Of a DNA stretch of 64,000 nucleotides, positions 21,875 to 26,250 are shown in pieces. The first letter of the stretch is position 1. Each line of letters begins with the position of its first letter. This DNA comes from a virus: the IMG/VR virus record IMGVR_UViG_3300036770_003326, positions 25,530-89,529 of that record, one strand, 5' to 3'. Both the position numbers and the translations under genes were made by a program. The notes beneath the pieces were generated by a model, which ran no database searches, was not told the DNA's origin, and was given only the letters and a program-made list of their open reading frames with translations.

Positions 21875-22390
21875 ATGGAAAAAAGAATCATTTTAGAATC
21901 AGCAAAAGGTGTTAAGAATAACAAAGTTCAATTGTGTTTTTCTCAAATAGTAGAAAGCTCTAAAACAAACACTAATGTATTAGGACTATTAAACGCATCT
22001 GATGAGCGTTTTACACAGTCTAAACCTCGTTATGCTTGGGTTACAGCAGAACCTAAAGATGTTAAAGCACAATTTGGTATTGATGTAGATAGTCTTAAAC
22101 AAGGTGATGTATTGGAAATAGGAGCTGTAGATCCAAGAATGGCATCATTCCCAGAAACAGCACTTAACATTCAAATTACCGAGACAACAGAAGGTAGTGA
22201 CTATGATGTACAAAACTTCGAGACTCGTGCTAAGAGAGCAGGTAAAGATGGTGATTTCATTATGAAAGACGGTTTGTATATCTATGTGAATACTACTGTT
22301 GTACCAGGTGAGCCTAAGCATGTTATCATTACTGATACTGAACGAGTATCTGCTAATGGATCTTCTTTGGCAAACTCTTTAGGAGTATAA
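21875..22390 (+). CDS. Probably abundant early protein of unknown function, 171 aa
   Basis: A soluble mixed alpha/beta protein (MEKRIILESAKGV) without Cys. It has a private structured leader and terminators on both sides (21652-21720 and 22402-22436). Its codons are richer in G/C-ending triplets than those of the neighbouring genes. These are features of a highly expressed single gene. A nucleic-acid-binding or host-shutoff role would suit the position, but no family is recognised. Confidence 0.6.
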   Translation: MEKRIILESAKGVKNNKVQLCFSQIVESSKTNTNVLGLLNASDERFTQSKPRYAWVTAEPKDVKAQFGIDVDSLKQGDVLEIGAVDPRMASFPETALNIQITETTEGSDYDVQNFETRAKRAGKDGDFIMKDGLYIYVNTTVVPGEPKHVIITDTERVSANGSSLANSLGV

Positions 22391-22462: not shown

Positions 22463-22729
22463 ATGGAACAGAAACAGACAGCAGTAGAATGGTTGGTCCA
22501 ACAACTAAGAAATGGTAAGGAATTTAATGATGAATTAATCCAACAAGCCAAAGCAATGGAGAAAGAAGAAATAATGTATAGTGAGGAAGAAGTTTTAGAA
22601 ATACTACAAAAATGGTCAATGTATCAAGTTGACATAGAGTTGAATAAATTAAATATAAAAGAACTAAATGATGTGTTGAAAAAAACATTGTCATATAAAG
22701 AATGGTTTGGTCAAATCAAAAAGAAGTAA
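22463..22729 (+). CDS. AVEWLV-family small protein, 88 aa
   Basis: It carries the family N-terminus QTAVEWLVQQL, followed by the QAKAMEKEE segment (residues about 30-40), and then a unique helical tail ending IKKK in place of the usual TFKSE. The family is common as small acidic helical proteins in Bacteroidota phages, with no known function. First cassette after the terminator; start set by the repeat immediately before ATG. Confidence 0.6.
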   Translation: MEQKQTAVEWLVQQLRNGKEFNDELIQQAKAMEKEEIMYSEEEVLEILQKWSMYQVDIELNKLNIKELNDVLKKTLSYKEWFGQIKKK

Positions 22730-22730
22730 T

Positions 22731-22793
22731 ATGGGAAAAGGATTAGACGTAGAAAAGTTTATGAAAGAAAAAGAAACCTTTAAATCAGAATAA
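22731..22793 (+). CDS. Micro-gene, 20 aa, ending in the repeat-encoded TFKSE
   Basis: Reads MGKGLDVEKFMKEKE then TFKSE and TAA. Seventeen of its 63 bases belong to the boundary repeat. It starts one base after the previous stop. Either a real micro-protein or the remains of a cassette deleted by recombination between repeats; the latter is the simpler view. Confidence 0.35.
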   Translation: MGKGLDVEKFMKEKETFKSE

Positions 22794-22794
22794 A

Positions 22795-23019
22795 ATGAAA
22801 ACAGCAGTAGAATGGTTGGTTGAAGAAATAAATAAACTAACTGGATTAACGATTCAAATGGATGAGCCAATAATTGAACAAGCTAAAGAAATGGAAAAAG
22901 AGCAGATAAAAAGTGCATTCACACAAGGTGATTTATTTGCAGAAGATTATTTTAACCCTGAAAAATCTAACATCGATTGTTCAGAAAATTACTACAACAA
23001 AACCTTTAAATCAGAATAA
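22795..23019 (+). CDS. AVEWLV-family small protein, 74 aa
   Basis: KTAVEWLVEEI at the start, QAKEMEKEQI around residue 30, and YYNKTFKSE at the end: the complete family pattern, strongly helical and acidic. Its last codons and stop form copy three of the boundary repeat, and the same bases (AATAAC, 23015-23020) form the first core box of the attC-like site that follows. Confidence 0.65.
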   Translation: MKTAVEWLVEEINKLTGLTIQMDEPIIEQAKEMEKEQIKSAFTQGDLFAEDYFNPEKSNIDCSENYYNKTFKSE

Positions 23020-23109
23020 CGGTTTGCGGCTTTGCAATAGCCGCCAAAGAAGAATTTAATTATTAACCGAGAATTGTCAGGCGGCTATTGCAAAACCGCT
23101 GTTAGCCGC
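23015..23109 (+). other. attC-like integron recombination site 1
   Basis: Left box AATAAC (23015-23020) and right box GTTAGCC (23101-23107) bracket a long imperfect hairpin. GCGG-C-TTTGCAATAGCCGCC (23026-23045) pairs with GGCGGCTATTGCAAAACCGC across about 35 bases, 19 of 20 positions matching. A short unpaired spacer on one arm agrees with attC geometry. Length about 95 bases is within the known attC range. Confidence 0.75.
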
Positions 23110-23134
23110 TGGCCTTTCTCACAACTTTAAAACA

Positions 23135-23365
23135 ATGACAGCAAAAGAACAAGCAAGTAGTTTAGTTGAGTATTTTTGGACAGATGTTGAAGAGTTTAAA
23201 CAATACGAAACTATTAAAATGACAAAAGAAATGGCTAAAGATTGTGCCATAAAAGTAGCTGAAGAAGCTAAAATAGAAATAGGAAATTTTGATAGAACTG
23301 ATGGATTTGTCAAAACTCGTGAAGATTTTTGGGATGCTGTCATTGTCGAAATACGGTCTATGTAG
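23135..23365 (+). CDS. Integron cassette A product: MTAKE-family small protein, 76 aa
   Basis: A soluble helical protein (MTAKEQASSLVEYFW; KEMAKDCAIKVAEEA; FWDAVIVEI). It is a distant paralogue of the 69-aa protein at 25584, which shows the same order MTAKEKAN, KEMAKQCA, FWEQVKQEI; such proteins are frequent in Bacteroidota genomes and phages, function unknown. It is the only gene between attC-like sites 1 and 2, 26 bases after the recombination point, which is the standard one-gene cassette layout. Confidence 0.65.
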   Translation: MTAKEQASSLVEYFWTDVEEFKQYETIKMTKEMAKDCAIKVAEEAKIEIGNFDRTDGFVKTREDFWDAVIVEIRSM

Positions 23366-23369
23366 GCTT

Positions 23370-23497
23370 GCGGCTAACGTTCCGAGTATTTGCGTAGTGC
23401 CTATACTGAACTATATTGTAAAATACAAAACTTAAAAATATGCAGAAAAGATTATTAGAATTACGAAAGGCATTACGCAAATACTGTGTTATGTGCC
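23370..23497 (+). other. attC-like integron recombination site 2
   Basis: Left box GCGGCTAAC (23370-23378) is the exact reverse complement of GTTAGCCGC (23101-23109) at the start of the same cassette. Inner arms AGTATTTGCGTAGTGCC (23385-23401) and GGCATTACGCAAATACT (23469-23485) match at 16 of 17 positions. Right box is GTTATGTGCC (23488-23497). The 67-base loop is AT-rich. Total 128 bases, large but within attC range. Confidence 0.85.
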
Positions 23498-23512
23498 GTT
23501 TTTATTCAGATT

Positions 23513-23854
23513 ATGACAACGAAAGAGAAGATAATAAATCAAAGCATTGAGCAAGTTGAAAAGCAACTCAAAGAAATCAATTTGATACTTGAAGCTAATC
23601 CTTTAAGCGAGATATGTAAAATTAGACAAGAAGCACAAAAATTGCTCGATGAAAACAAAACTGTTGAGCAAAGAACGAGTGATGATTTTATTGCTAAAAT
23701 AGAAGCATTGTCTAAACGTGAAAAAGAGCAATTTGCATTAGCTGAAAAAGGCAAGGATAGTATAAAATTGATTGACGAAAAAGTCAAATTAGAGTTTGAG
23801 TTGTCAGACTTGCGAAATGAACTGTATCATATTGAACGTAGGCGCGTGTCTTAA
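23513..23854 (+). CDS. Integron cassette B product: coiled-coil protein, 113 aa
   Basis: The ATG at 23513 is chosen; a longer GTG frame from 23486 would read through the attC core and is unlikely. The protein is Glu/Lys-rich and almost wholly helical with heptad character (EKIINQSIEQVEKQLKEI), so a coiled coil is predicted over most of its length. No family is recognised. The gene fills the space between attC-like sites 2 and 3 and ends four bases before the latter. Confidence 0.6.
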   Translation: MTTKEKIINQSIEQVEKQLKEINLILEANPLSEICKIRQEAQKLLDENKTVEQRTSDDFIAKIEALSKREKEQFALAEKGKDSIKLIDEKVKLEFELSDLRNELYHIERRRVS

Positions 23855-23857
23855 AAT

Positions 23858-23914
23858 GGCACATAACACCAAAGCAGGTGAAGTTTTAATTTCACTTGCT
23901 GACTGTTATCCGCA
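23858..23914 (+). other. attC-like integron recombination site 3
   Basis: Left box GGCACATAAC (23858-23867) is the exact reverse complement of GTTATGTGCC (23488-23497), the start of cassette B. Arms AGCAGGTGAA (23873-23882) and TTCACTTGCT (23892-23901) match at 9 of 10 positions with a nine-base loop. Right box GTTATCC (23906-23912). A further GTTATT at 23931-23936 complements the left box of site 1. Confidence 0.8.
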
Positions 23915-23955
23915 GTTTTAATTGCGAAAGTTATTAACCTTTAAATCAGAATAAA

Positions 23956-24177
23956 ATGAAACAGACAGCCGTAGAATGGTTAGTTGAAAAATTTTCAACT
24001 CAAGGAACATTACATAGTTCAGATATATCACAAGCCAAAGCAATGGAGAAGGAGCAGATAATGGATGCAAGAGAAGATGGTCATTTATCTACATATGCAG
24101 AATATGGTTCAACTCCTAAATGTTACTTAGACGGAGGACATGAACAATACTACAACGAAACATTTAAATCAGAATAA
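23956..24177 (+). CDS. AVEWLV-family small protein, 73 aa
   Basis: KQTAVEWLVEKF at the start, QAKAMEKEQI at about residue 30 and YYNETFKSE at the end. The middle (residues 40-62) is a variable part unique to this copy. It follows the integron-like insertion, and its leader GTTATTAACC plus the repeat looks like an ancestral cassette start. Confidence 0.65.
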   Translation: MKQTAVEWLVEKFSTQGTLHSSDISQAKAMEKEQIMDAREDGHLSTYAEYGSTPKCYLDGGHEQYYNETFKSE

Positions 24178-24178
24178 G

Positions 24179-24376
24179 ATGGAACTATTTAAAAGTAAAT
24201 GGGGTCAATGGACAGACCTATCAACTACGGGGTATATGGGGTATAAATATTTACTTCAAGCAAGAAGGCATAAAGACGGAAGAATACAATACAGAGTAGA
24301 AAAAAGTAAGGATTGCTATACTTGCAACATTCCAACACTTGAACAATTAGAAAAAGTAACCTTTAAATCAGAATAA
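24179..24376 (+). CDS. Small basic protein, 65 aa
   Basis: Start at ATG 24179, inside the repeat-derived leader. MELFKSKWGQWTDL opens a Lys/Tyr/Trp-rich protein, probably a small beta domain, that ends in repeat-encoded TFKSE. A similar compact fold occurs in many Bacteroidota accessory proteins, but no family is named. It overlaps the previous stop by two bases or less. Confidence 0.55.
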   Translation: MELFKSKWGQWTDLSTTGYMGYKYLLQARRHKDGRIQYRVEKSKDCYTCNIPTLEQLEKVTFKSE

Positions 24377-24377
24377 G

Positions 24378-24563
24378 ATGAAAACAATAAATGACTTTAT
24401 TAAAGAACTTCAAATGATTAGTGAAGAAAAAAGAAAATTACCATTGGTTGTTCAATGTCCAAATGGGGAAATAACATCACCAACAATTAAGATGATGTGG
24501 GATGAACCATTAATGATGTTTGAAAAAGAACCTGATAAAATGATTATTAGTTGGAGAGATTAA
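24378..24563 (+). CDS. Small hypothetical protein, 61 aa
   Basis: A soluble protein (MKTINDFIKELQMISEEKRKLP, VVQCPNGE, MIISWRD) that ends before the next repeat copy, so here the repeat is spacer and not coding. The pattern is like small Bacteroidota accessory proteins of unknown function. Confidence 0.55.
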   Translation: MKTINDFIKELQMISEEKRKLPLVVQCPNGEITSPTIKMMWDEPLMMFEKEPDKMIISWRD

Positions 24564-24581
24564 CCTTTAAATCAGAATAGA

Positions 24582-24980
24582 ATGATAATACAAACAAGAA
24601 GGACTTATGATTTTATTGAAATAAAAGTTGATGAAATTAAAACTACAATTTTTAAAAGTGACATTAAGGAAATAAATGACACAATTGAAAATTTATTACA
24701 AGTAGTTGATGAATTAAAAACACTAAAAGAAAGACAAAAAAACAGAACTATGAAACAAACAGCAGTAGAATGGTTGGTTAACGAACTTAAAAACAATCAC
24801 GGTATAGATTTAAAATTATACAATGAGTTTGACAAAGCCAAAGAAATGGAGAAAAAGCAGAGAAAAAAAGACTTTGTTAATGGCTATAAATCAAGAGCCA
24901 AAGAAAGCAATTTAATTTTTGATGAAACCTCTGAAATGTATGCAATTAAATTATTTAACGAAACCTTTAAATCAGAATAG
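24582..24980 (+). CDS. In-frame fusion of a coiled-coil segment to an AVEWLV-family protein, 132 aa
   Basis: Residues 1-56 are a Lys/Glu/Ile-rich helical segment ending KNRT. Residue 57 is Met, and from there the reading is a complete family member: KQTAVEWLVNEL, KAKEMEKKQ, LFNETFKSE. The junction AACAGAACTATGAAACAAAC resembles a degraded boundary element without its stop. Either a fused gene or two translated units sharing one frame. Confidence 0.6.
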   Translation: MIIQTRRTYDFIEIKVDEIKTTIFKSDIKEINDTIENLLQVVDELKTLKERQKNRTMKQTAVEWLVNELKNNHGIDLKLYNEFDKAKEMEKKQRKKDFVNGYKSRAKESNLIFDETSEMYAIKLFNETFKSE

Positions 24981-24981
24981 A

Positions 24982-25368
24982 ATGAAAGCAAATGAATTAA
25001 GAATAGGAAATTATGTTTATGATACTTTAGGTAAAGTAAATACCTATATTGTAAAAGAACCACATAATCAAGTTAAACCAATCCCGCTAACAGAAGAATG
25101 GTTGTTGAAGTTTGGATTTAAAAAATACCCTGACATTAGAGATACATTTCAACAAGTATATTATGATTCCTATCAACTTGAAATTGATAGATTTACTATT
25201 ATTTCATTTTCTATCCAACAAAACAATAAAAATTTGATTAAGTGTAATTATGATAGAGGTTATAGGTCAGAAGATAATAAAAAAAATTATTACATCAAAT
25301 ATCTTCATCAACTTCAAAACCTATACTTTGCACTTACAGGAGAAGAATTAACCTTTAAATCAGAATAG
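24982..25368 (+). CDS. MKANELRIGN-family small protein, 128 aa
   Basis: This matches a small-protein type very common in Bacteroidota genomes and phages: MKANELRIGNYV, PIPLTEEWLLKFGF, HQLQNLYFALTGEEL. Its function is unknown, and it is probably a compact beta-rich domain with a helical end. The normal C-terminus is here extended by repeat-encoded TFKSE. Start set by the repeat leader. Confidence 0.7.
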   Translation: MKANELRIGNYVYDTLGKVNTYIVKEPHNQVKPIPLTEEWLLKFGFKKYPDIRDTFQQVYYDSYQLEIDRFTIISFSIQQNNKNLIKCNYDRGYRSEDNKKNYYIKYLHQLQNLYFALTGEELTFKSE

Positions 25369-25369
25369 A

Positions 25370-25582
25370 ATGAAAACAATAACAAAATCAGTAATTAAGT
25401 TGTCGGATATTCCACAGCATTTACAACAAAATGTAGCATTACAAGGACATAAAATACATACTTATGCAGAGTTTCACATTGATAATTCAGAACAAGATGA
25501 TTTAACATTGTGGCTATTAAATAAACATCCTACATTAAAAAGGAAAATAAGTTTTTTAATTCATATTGATAAATCAGAATAG
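25370..25582 (+). CDS. Small hypothetical protein, 70 aa
   Basis: MKTITKSVIKLSDIP begins a soluble mixed protein ending HIDKSE. The last residues and stop come from the 5'-truncated boundary repeat at 25569, which shows how the repeat can donate a new C-terminus. No domain recognised. Confidence 0.55.
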   Translation: MKTITKSVIKLSDIPQHLQQNVALQGHKIHTYAEFHIDNSEQDDLTLWLLNKHPTLKRKISFLIHIDKSE

Positions 25583-25583
25583 A

Positions 25584-25793
25584 ATGACAGCAAAAGAAAA
25601 AGCAAATAGATTGTGCATTGATTTTTTAATGAACATTGATACAGATGATTGTGATTTTGGAATGAATAAAGAAATGGCAAAACAATGTGCATTGGTTGCA
25701 GTGAATGAAATACTTGAAAGTTTTATAATAACTATCCCTAAACATCAAACTGAGTTTTGGGAGCAAGTTAAACAAGAAATAATTAACCTTTAA
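25584..25793 (+). CDS. MTAKE-family small protein, 69 aa
   Basis: MTAKEKANRLCIDF, NKEMAKQCALVAVNEIL and FWEQVKQEIINL give the order typical of this small helical family. It is a distant paralogue of the integron cassette A product at 23135. The ATG at 25584 directly after the repeat is preferred over the in-frame upstream frame. Confidence 0.65.
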   Translation: MTAKEKANRLCIDFLMNIDTDDCDFGMNKEMAKQCALVAVNEILESFIITIPKHQTEFWEQVKQEIINL

Positions 25794-25804
25794 ATTAGAA
25801 TAAG

Positions 25805-26047
25805 ATGACAGCAGTAGAAGAATTAATACATTTTATTAAAAATGATAGAATGCAAAGTACATACACAAAAGAACAAATATTGGAACTACTTAAATTTAAG
25901 TTAGAAAAAGAGAAAGAGCAGATGATTGAATTTGCTAAGTACACAGAATTTATTGATACAGATAAAAGTGATATGAACAAAGTAATAGACTTTTACTTAA
26001 CACTTGACGGAGAAGAATTTGTTGAAGAAACCTTTAAATCAGAATAA
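25805..26047 (+). CDS. AVEWLV-related small protein, 80 aa
   Basis: MTAVEELIHFIKN is a diverged family N-terminus. KLEKEKEQMIEFAK replaces the EMEKEQ segment, and EETFKSE ends the protein. Helical and acidic throughout. Bounded by repeat copies at 25785 and 26029. Confidence 0.6.
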   Translation: MTAVEELIHFIKNDRMQSTYTKEQILELLKFKLEKEKEQMIEFAKYTEFIDTDKSDMNKVIDFYLTLDGEEFVEETFKSE

Positions 26048-26048
26048 G

Positions 26049-26250
26049 ATGGAAAACAGCAGTAGAATGGTTTCAAGAACAGTTTAATAAGTATTATGCT
26101 TTTTCAAAGGAAGAAATGCAAACATTTGATTGGATGTTTAACAAAGCCAAAGAAATGGAGAAAGAGCAGATAATAGATGCTTGTAAACAATGTTCTTATA
26201 GTTATGAAGAAGCAGAACAATACTACAACGAAACCTTTAAATCAGAATAA
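26049..26250 (+). pseudogene. AVEWLV-family copy disabled by a one-base shift at the start
   Basis: After ATGG at 26049 the frame of AAA ACA GCA GTA (from 26053) reads KTAVEWFQEQF, AKEMEKEQI and YYNETFKSE to TAA at 26248-26250, a complete family member. The ATG is out of that frame by one extra G; its own frame stops after 12 codons at 26087. Either a genuine inactivating insertion or a sequencing error beside the GG-AAAA run. Confidence 0.7.

Follow-up and report, generated by a model that had tools for sequence, protein, structure and literature searches.

Integrons are known as a bacterial gene-capture system, with phages regarded as rare and accidental carriers. The 64,000 nucleotides of viral DNA analysed here (hereafter the window), part of an 89.5-kb metagenomic record, raise the question of whether a phage may carry an integron-type array, and if so, which recombinase would act on it. 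Between positions 23018 and 23912, two one-gene cassettes and three hairpins, both genes being on the + strand, break up a series of small phage genes which have in common the motif TTTAAATCAGAATAA.

Organization of the locus

attC site 1 (23014–23107, + strand) is composed of an AAC (23018–23020), a hairpin (23021–23100) and a GTT (23101). Its left R'' box, GAATAAC, is provided by the end (23005–23020, + strand) of phage gene 22795–23019, which carries the repeated TTTAAATCAGAATAA motif. The arms of hairpin 1 (23026–23045 and 23080–23099), read directly, are 20 nt long and pair at 95%. attC site 2 (23372–23494, + strand) has its AAC at 23376–23378 and its GTT at 23488, on either side of a hairpin whose arms (23385–23402 and 23468–23485), also read directly, are 18 nt long and pair at 94%. 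This hairpin is 93–96% identical to hairpins of viral contigs L012 and L015, in which the left-hand genes differ from that of the window. The third, attC-like site (23858–23911, + strand) is short, with a 37-nt hairpin, a GTTTTAAT loop and GTTATCC at 23905. A second small hairpin, again with a GTTTTAAT loop (23905–23934, + strand), is a possible remnant, read from sequence alone.

A simple AAC-stem-stem-GTT search (structural scan) recovered all three sites, with AAC/GTT at 23018/23101, 23376/23488 and 23865/23905. Hairpins 1 and 2 had a stem score of 16.5, compared to a maximum of 13 after the 64 kb had been shuffled 100 times (order-2 Markov), and none of the shuffled sequences gave a linked cassette. 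Site 3 had a score of 10, and hairpin 3 (23865–23905) taken on its own lies within chance expectation. An Rfam scan of the region returned chance matches only, far under gathering scores.

Cassette A (23101–23487, + strand) runs from the R' box GTTAGCCGC to the R'' box GCGGCTAAC (23370–23378, + strand, read directly) plus the attC 2 hairpin. GTTAGCCGC at 23101 is complementary to GCGGCTAAC over 9 nt, and complementarity extends to 15-nt arms at 87%, a 2-nt mismatch included. Cassette B (23488–23904, + strand) similarly runs from R' GTTATGTGCC to R'' GGCACATAAC (23858–23867, + strand, read directly) plus the terminal hairpin. Here, GTTATGTGCC at 23488 and GGCACATAAC are complementary over 10 nt and, past a small mismatch, over 17-nt arms at 94%. 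By virtue of this left box, complementary to the start of cassette B, site 3 is likely to be a real, if short and weak, terminal attC-like site.

The initial annotation had proposed three hairpin sites with the box logic of attC, a start of cassettes A and B exactly complementary to their own left boxes, and one co-directional gene per cassette. These claims held (9 and 10 nt exact, respectively; two + strand genes), the third site being weak. It had also paired GTTATT at 23931 with AATAAC at 23015. This boundary is not supported, the match being only 6 nt with the fixed GTT/AAC included, and the third boundary is corrected to GTTATCC at 23905.

Conserved hairpin structure and box complementarity

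We built a covariance model, R1, from 34 hairpins found in viral contigs other than L012; the window itself was also excluded. Of the 21 consensus pairs in this alignment, 16 show compensatory changes. With filters off, R1 matched attC 2 with 82.1 bits (E 1.2e-18) and attC 1 with 53.2 bits (E 2.6e-11); the next-best site in the window had an E value of 0.009, and site 3 was not matched. Since the training site from L015 is ~93% identical to hairpin 2, hairpin 1 provides the cleaner and more independent test. Both sites were missed when the faster default filters were applied to the whole window, and filtered genome counts are therefore lower bounds. The structural features of attC are thus met: an imperfect hairpin, unpaired spacers between R and L boxes, and conservation of structure, not of sequence.

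If the sites were plain palindromes, the boxes flanking one hairpin would be expected to match, whereas an integron cassette should have a start that matches the end of the same cassette. We compared 140 homologous cassettes: start and end of the same cassette matched over at least 9 nt in 56/100 viral and 30/40 bacterial ones (56–75%). Matches of this length across one hairpin were found in 1/174 viral and 2/78 bacterial cases (1–3%), and with one site skipped in 0/60 and 0/27 (0/87 together), random matches amounting to 1–2%. Box complementarity therefore follows the integron logic: it is the ends of a cassette that pair, not the flanks of a hairpin. In the window also, R' is complementary to the R'' of its own cassette, with GTT/AAC outermost.

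Alternatively, the hairpins could be transcription terminators or signals for mRNA processing or stability, with box complementarity reflecting larger RNA structures. Long stems that fold well between co-directional genes are compatible with this. However, no T-run follows the stems, and other intergenic spaces of the same operon are devoid of such hairpins. In addition, the conserved pairing links the ends of one gene unit instead of the flanks of a hairpin, which terminators do not predict. We consider this explanation very unlikely and favour attC sites.

Genes carried by the two cassettes

The cassette A gene (23135–23365, + strand) encodes 76 aa and belongs to the phrog_21441 family, of unknown function; it is a paralogue of a non-cassette gene of the same phage (25584–25793). 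The supporting E values are 2.6e-4 and 3e-11. Homologues of cassette A with ~40% identity occur in L009 and L010, with boxes GTTAGTGGC/GCCACTAAC and GTTATAGGT/ACCTATAAC. These box sequences differ and yet remain self-complementary, so pairing was kept while sequence changed, that is, by compensatory changes. The cassette B gene (23513–23854, + strand; 113 aa, unknown function) has a relative in viral contig L011 (49% identity), where no attC adjoins it. A relative of gene A outside a cassette and one of gene B without attC imply that these families enter or leave cassettes.

The closest homologues of the window cassettes are found in viral contigs. No cassette protein scored above a cut-off in Pfam, and cassette A had no match among named phages. 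A pattern scan of 84,980 genomes with the exact attC 2 arm gave just two chance matches, both inside genes; one of the genomes concerned, of Algoriphagus, has R1-type sites elsewhere.

Some further observations concern cassette structure. Cassette B (23488–23867) and the MQKRLLEL cassette of L012 and L015 have ~17 nt in common at both ends, but their genes are unrelated; one possibility is an exchange of cargo within a shared cassette shell. One cassette gene (..KCA[KQ]GWHDGSCCC..) is found behind two different attC hairpins (L033:10406-10761 and L034:2640-3009), each giving an in-frame start and a leader, with self-complementary boxes that differ. Finally, positions 22463–26250 of the window hold a series of small related genes (TAVEWL..KAMEKEQI..TFKSE) separated by a repeat, AACCTTTAAATCAGAATAAAATG, which could possibly be an expression signal or a recombination substrate.

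The phage carrier and its crAss-like relatives

The terminase, portal and major capsid genes of the record are crAss-like and its relatives are found among crAss-like phages, supporting a crAss-like phage of Bacteroidota as the carrier of the array; its particular host is unknown. No tyrosine recombinase or integrase was found in the whole 89.5-kb record. The window thus satisfies the definition of a CALIN (at least two attC sites, no intI nearby) and not that of a complete integron, with intI and attI beside the array.

R1 matches occurred in 2 of 30 related records (28 without), one of the two being marginal (G441, a single match with E 8e-4). The other, the related crAss-like phage G426, carries a six-site R1 array with genes different from those of the window, which starts ~0.6 kb from a homologue of the conserved window gene 21875–22390. 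No R1 site was found in the near-full-length relatives G422 and G423. A recombinase profile gave no match in the crAss-like relatives, although this search lacked a positive control. Cassettes are therefore an occasional feature of these phages and sit in a hot spot. Just past the final attC of the G426 array (L311, ~4120-3480, minus strand), we noted a non-coding, structured-looking stretch, group II intron-like by eye, for which Rfam gave no match.

The segment might also be chimeric, with phage and integron-array sequences wrongly joined in assembly, the record being metagenomic and cassette arrays being hard to assemble. Against this, the array is located mid-contig with the same repeated phage motif on both flanks, a paralogue of cassette A exists elsewhere in this phage genome, and an independent array occupies the same region of G426. 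A chimera is thus very unlikely, and we treat the array as part of the phage genome.

Distribution in Bacteroidota and the associated recombinase

Within the genomes sampled, sequence comparison shows this attC type to be specific to Bacteroidota, with R1 matches in 182 of 395 genomes (46%) versus 1 of 299 in Pseudomonadota. R1 did not find the attC sites of a Vibrio integron and, conversely, a model made from Vibrio attC only gave no significant match to this type, window included. Activity with a classical IntI is uncertain because the two models do not cross-detect.

We examined the arrays of 24 Bacteroidota genomes, picked for strong attC matches and not at random. A tyrosine recombinase adjoins the array in at least 14 of the 24. 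These proteins match IntI in two pieces (split at profile positions 180/238), the middle part 181–237 being absent, and fall below the cut-off of the IntI model TIGR02249 (265 bits), so that they do not qualify as classical IntI. Their best NCBIfam model is NF040815, 'site-specific tyrosine recombinase/integron integrase', with some above its cut-off. The link between array and recombinase is an association only, no recombination having been shown. A separate clade apart from IntI is not claimed for the array recombinases, node support being 0.06.

Classical IntI genes are present in 3 of the 24 genomes. A search of their neighbourhoods in Bacteroidota detected no array; classical IntI genes without detectable cassettes were noted in G028:C5, G038:C32 and G060:C10 (L138-L140).

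Chromosomal arrays of this attC type are seen in L126:4527-14800 (G295), L124 and L125 (G397), L122 and L123 (G079) and L132 (G311), in all of which a XerA/IntI-like recombinase lies upstream of the genes and co-directional with them. We considered and rejected the idea that the recombinase is always located 3' of the arrayed genes: bacterial genes run the other way, and the recombinase is therefore upstream of, and co-directional with, the bacterial cassette genes.

Viral arrays with their own recombinase

In viral contig L041 (976–5826), an array, a recombinase and a terminase follow in succession. A scan with the recombinase alignment yielded 80 viral loci, 52 of which include at least 3 kb upstream. 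In 36 of these 52, R1 attC sites lie upstream of the recombinase on the same strand, and several loci lacking R1 sites have candidates by the simple AAC-stem-stem-GTT scan. Genes near these arrays include those for terminase, DnaB, primase-helicase, DNA polymerase and head protease, and viral contigs of 50–76 kb carry 3–18 attC sites apiece. In the tree, the phage recombinases cluster with one another, but their placement relative to bacterial ones and to IntI is unresolved (support 0.06). Only distant recombinase relatives (34% or less across most of their length) occur in isolated phages of the reference set. The succession of attC array, recombinase and phage genes is also seen in L147, L149, L157, L159 and L161, while L200 and L175 have an additional, separate integrase-like gene directly downstream.

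The polarity of attC is set by its spacers (~6 nt left, 2 nt right). Genes are co-oriented with attC in 82 of 94 viral cassettes compared to 3 of 39 bacterial cassettes, in 35 of which they are opposed. The median cassette length is 343 nt in viral and 872 nt in bacterial arrays. The genes of the window have the viral orientation.

Two cassettes of a bacterial chromosome could have been acquired in a single accidental event, illegitimate or homologous, and persist as dead passengers. The absence of a recombinase from the phage and of attC from most relatives (28/30), and the degraded appearance of the terminal hairpin, speak for this possibility. However, gene orientation relative to attC is of the phage type, the nearest cassette homologues are viral, other cassettes occupy the same region of G426, and the R boxes of cassettes A and B are intact. 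We therefore regard dead passengers as unlikely and retain an array of phage type.

Viral hairpins also contribute to reading frames. An ATG opening a frame of at least 40 codons into the next cassette was found in 37% of viral-array hairpins versus 8% when the arm was shuffled; for ATG-opened frames in bacterial-array hairpins, the values were 14% and 9%. In the window, a leader frame of 36 aa (23440–23550, + strand) begins in the attC 2 loop and continues through the right arm until it overlaps the first part of gene B.

Interpretation and proposed mechanism

Taken together, these results indicate that this crAss-like phage likely carries a CALIN, a small cassette array of integron type that lacks an integrase, within a variable region of small genes. 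Cassette anatomy, covariation, distribution and association with a recombinase are shown at the sequence level; recombination is inferred. The attC and cassette families of the window type recur in other viral contigs with other neighbours.

The initial annotation had seen no integrase, which held for the entire 89.5-kb record. Its reading of the locus as an integrase-less attC cluster in a crAss-like Bacteroidota phage is supported by the R1 matches, the end complementarity, the compensatory R-box changes and the crAss-like terminase, portal and capsid genes. It would have been refuted by the absence of an attC-model match at any site, or by relatives with non-complementary boxes and unrelated hairpins; instead, R1 matched two of the three sites and the boxes of relatives are complementary. 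Two further corrections are required. The attC sites are of a type other than that of Vibrio, and, for the suggestion of a vehicle for movement between Bacteroidota, exchange from phage to phage is at least as likely, because the cassettes are closer to a phage pool (opposite orientation, phage homologues) than to arrays of bacteria.

In the mechanism that we propose, single strands, arising for example in phage replication, would fold into attC hairpins. By analogy, cassettes would be joined at G^TT of R', with cutting as in IntI. As the window phage has no recombinase, cassette movement would need one in trans, and an enzyme from another phage or from the host may act on its array. The phage would gain or lose small genes by cassette joining, with exchange mainly among phages. 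Ribosomes starting in the attC loop (leader 23440–23550) may open the hairpin and aid expression of the next cassette.

A bolder reading joins several claims: Bacteroidota phages would own an integron class, with arrays of small cassettes reverse-oriented relative to bacterial ones; the cassettes would be moved by XerA/IntI-like recombinases that form a phage clade and lack the IntI insertion; attC loops would double as translation starts; and crAss-like phages without recombinase would draw from a shared cassette pool. For this joint claim, we judge the balance to tip only slightly in favour. If phages of a major phylum do run their own cassette exchange, the rapid turnover that small unknown genes undergo in crAss-like phages and other phages of Bacteroidota would be explained by a site-specific process, and an overlooked recombinase-attC system would exist in almost half of Bacteroidota species. 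How cassettes form and become expressed would be a testable question, since gene families that are found in cassettes are also present elsewhere.

Comparison with known systems

As in classical integrons (IntI, attI and attC; Vibrio superintegron, class 1), R' is complementary to its own R'', with a hairpin between and one gene per cassette, and in the Vibrio cassettes that we measured, the ends match in the same way as in the window type. In contrast, the spacers between R and L boxes are mostly ~6 and 2 nt here and ~5–6 nt on both sides in classical integrons, the stem is long and perfect, the recombinase lacks the IntI insertion and the models do not cross-detect. Classical IntI scores above the IntI model cut-off, unlike the array-associated recombinases. 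XerA/NF040815 (NCBIfam) is the best-scoring model for the latter, but this family model is silent on attC arrays. A class 1 attC sequence used as a query had no match in plasmids.

Almost no complete integrons were reported in Bacteroidota with IntegronFinder 2.0 (PMC9024848). The In0 elements of Bacteroidota and the Salinibacter integron described there come from the same phylum, and classical IntI without an array was also seen here in 3/24 genomes; by comparison, we find arrays of a different attC type in 46% of sampled Bacteroidota species.

CALINs and integrons in phages, such as Polaribacter phage P12002L and Pseudoalteromonas phage H101, were described by Qi et al. 2023 (PMC9892861), and five of six tested sites recombined with IntI1. 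Like these virulent phages, the window phage carries attC sites and cassettes without integrase. In P12002L (L054, 14499–14628), we noted a single weak R1-type attC (E 4e-5), at a distance from the methyltransferase genes assigned to its CALIN in the 2023 paper. The text of that paper mentions neither crAss-like phages nor Bacteroidota; here, the attC type is Bacteroidota-specific, and some phage contigs carry a recombinase of their own adjoining the array. In the open-access literature searched (subscription papers and preprints were outside), we found no description of this attC type with a XerA-like recombinase, nor of phage arrays accompanied by a recombinase of the phage. Phage CALINs as such had been reported before; while priority is not established, novelty seems to lie in the attC class, in the recombinase that goes with it and in the orientation of the phage cassettes.
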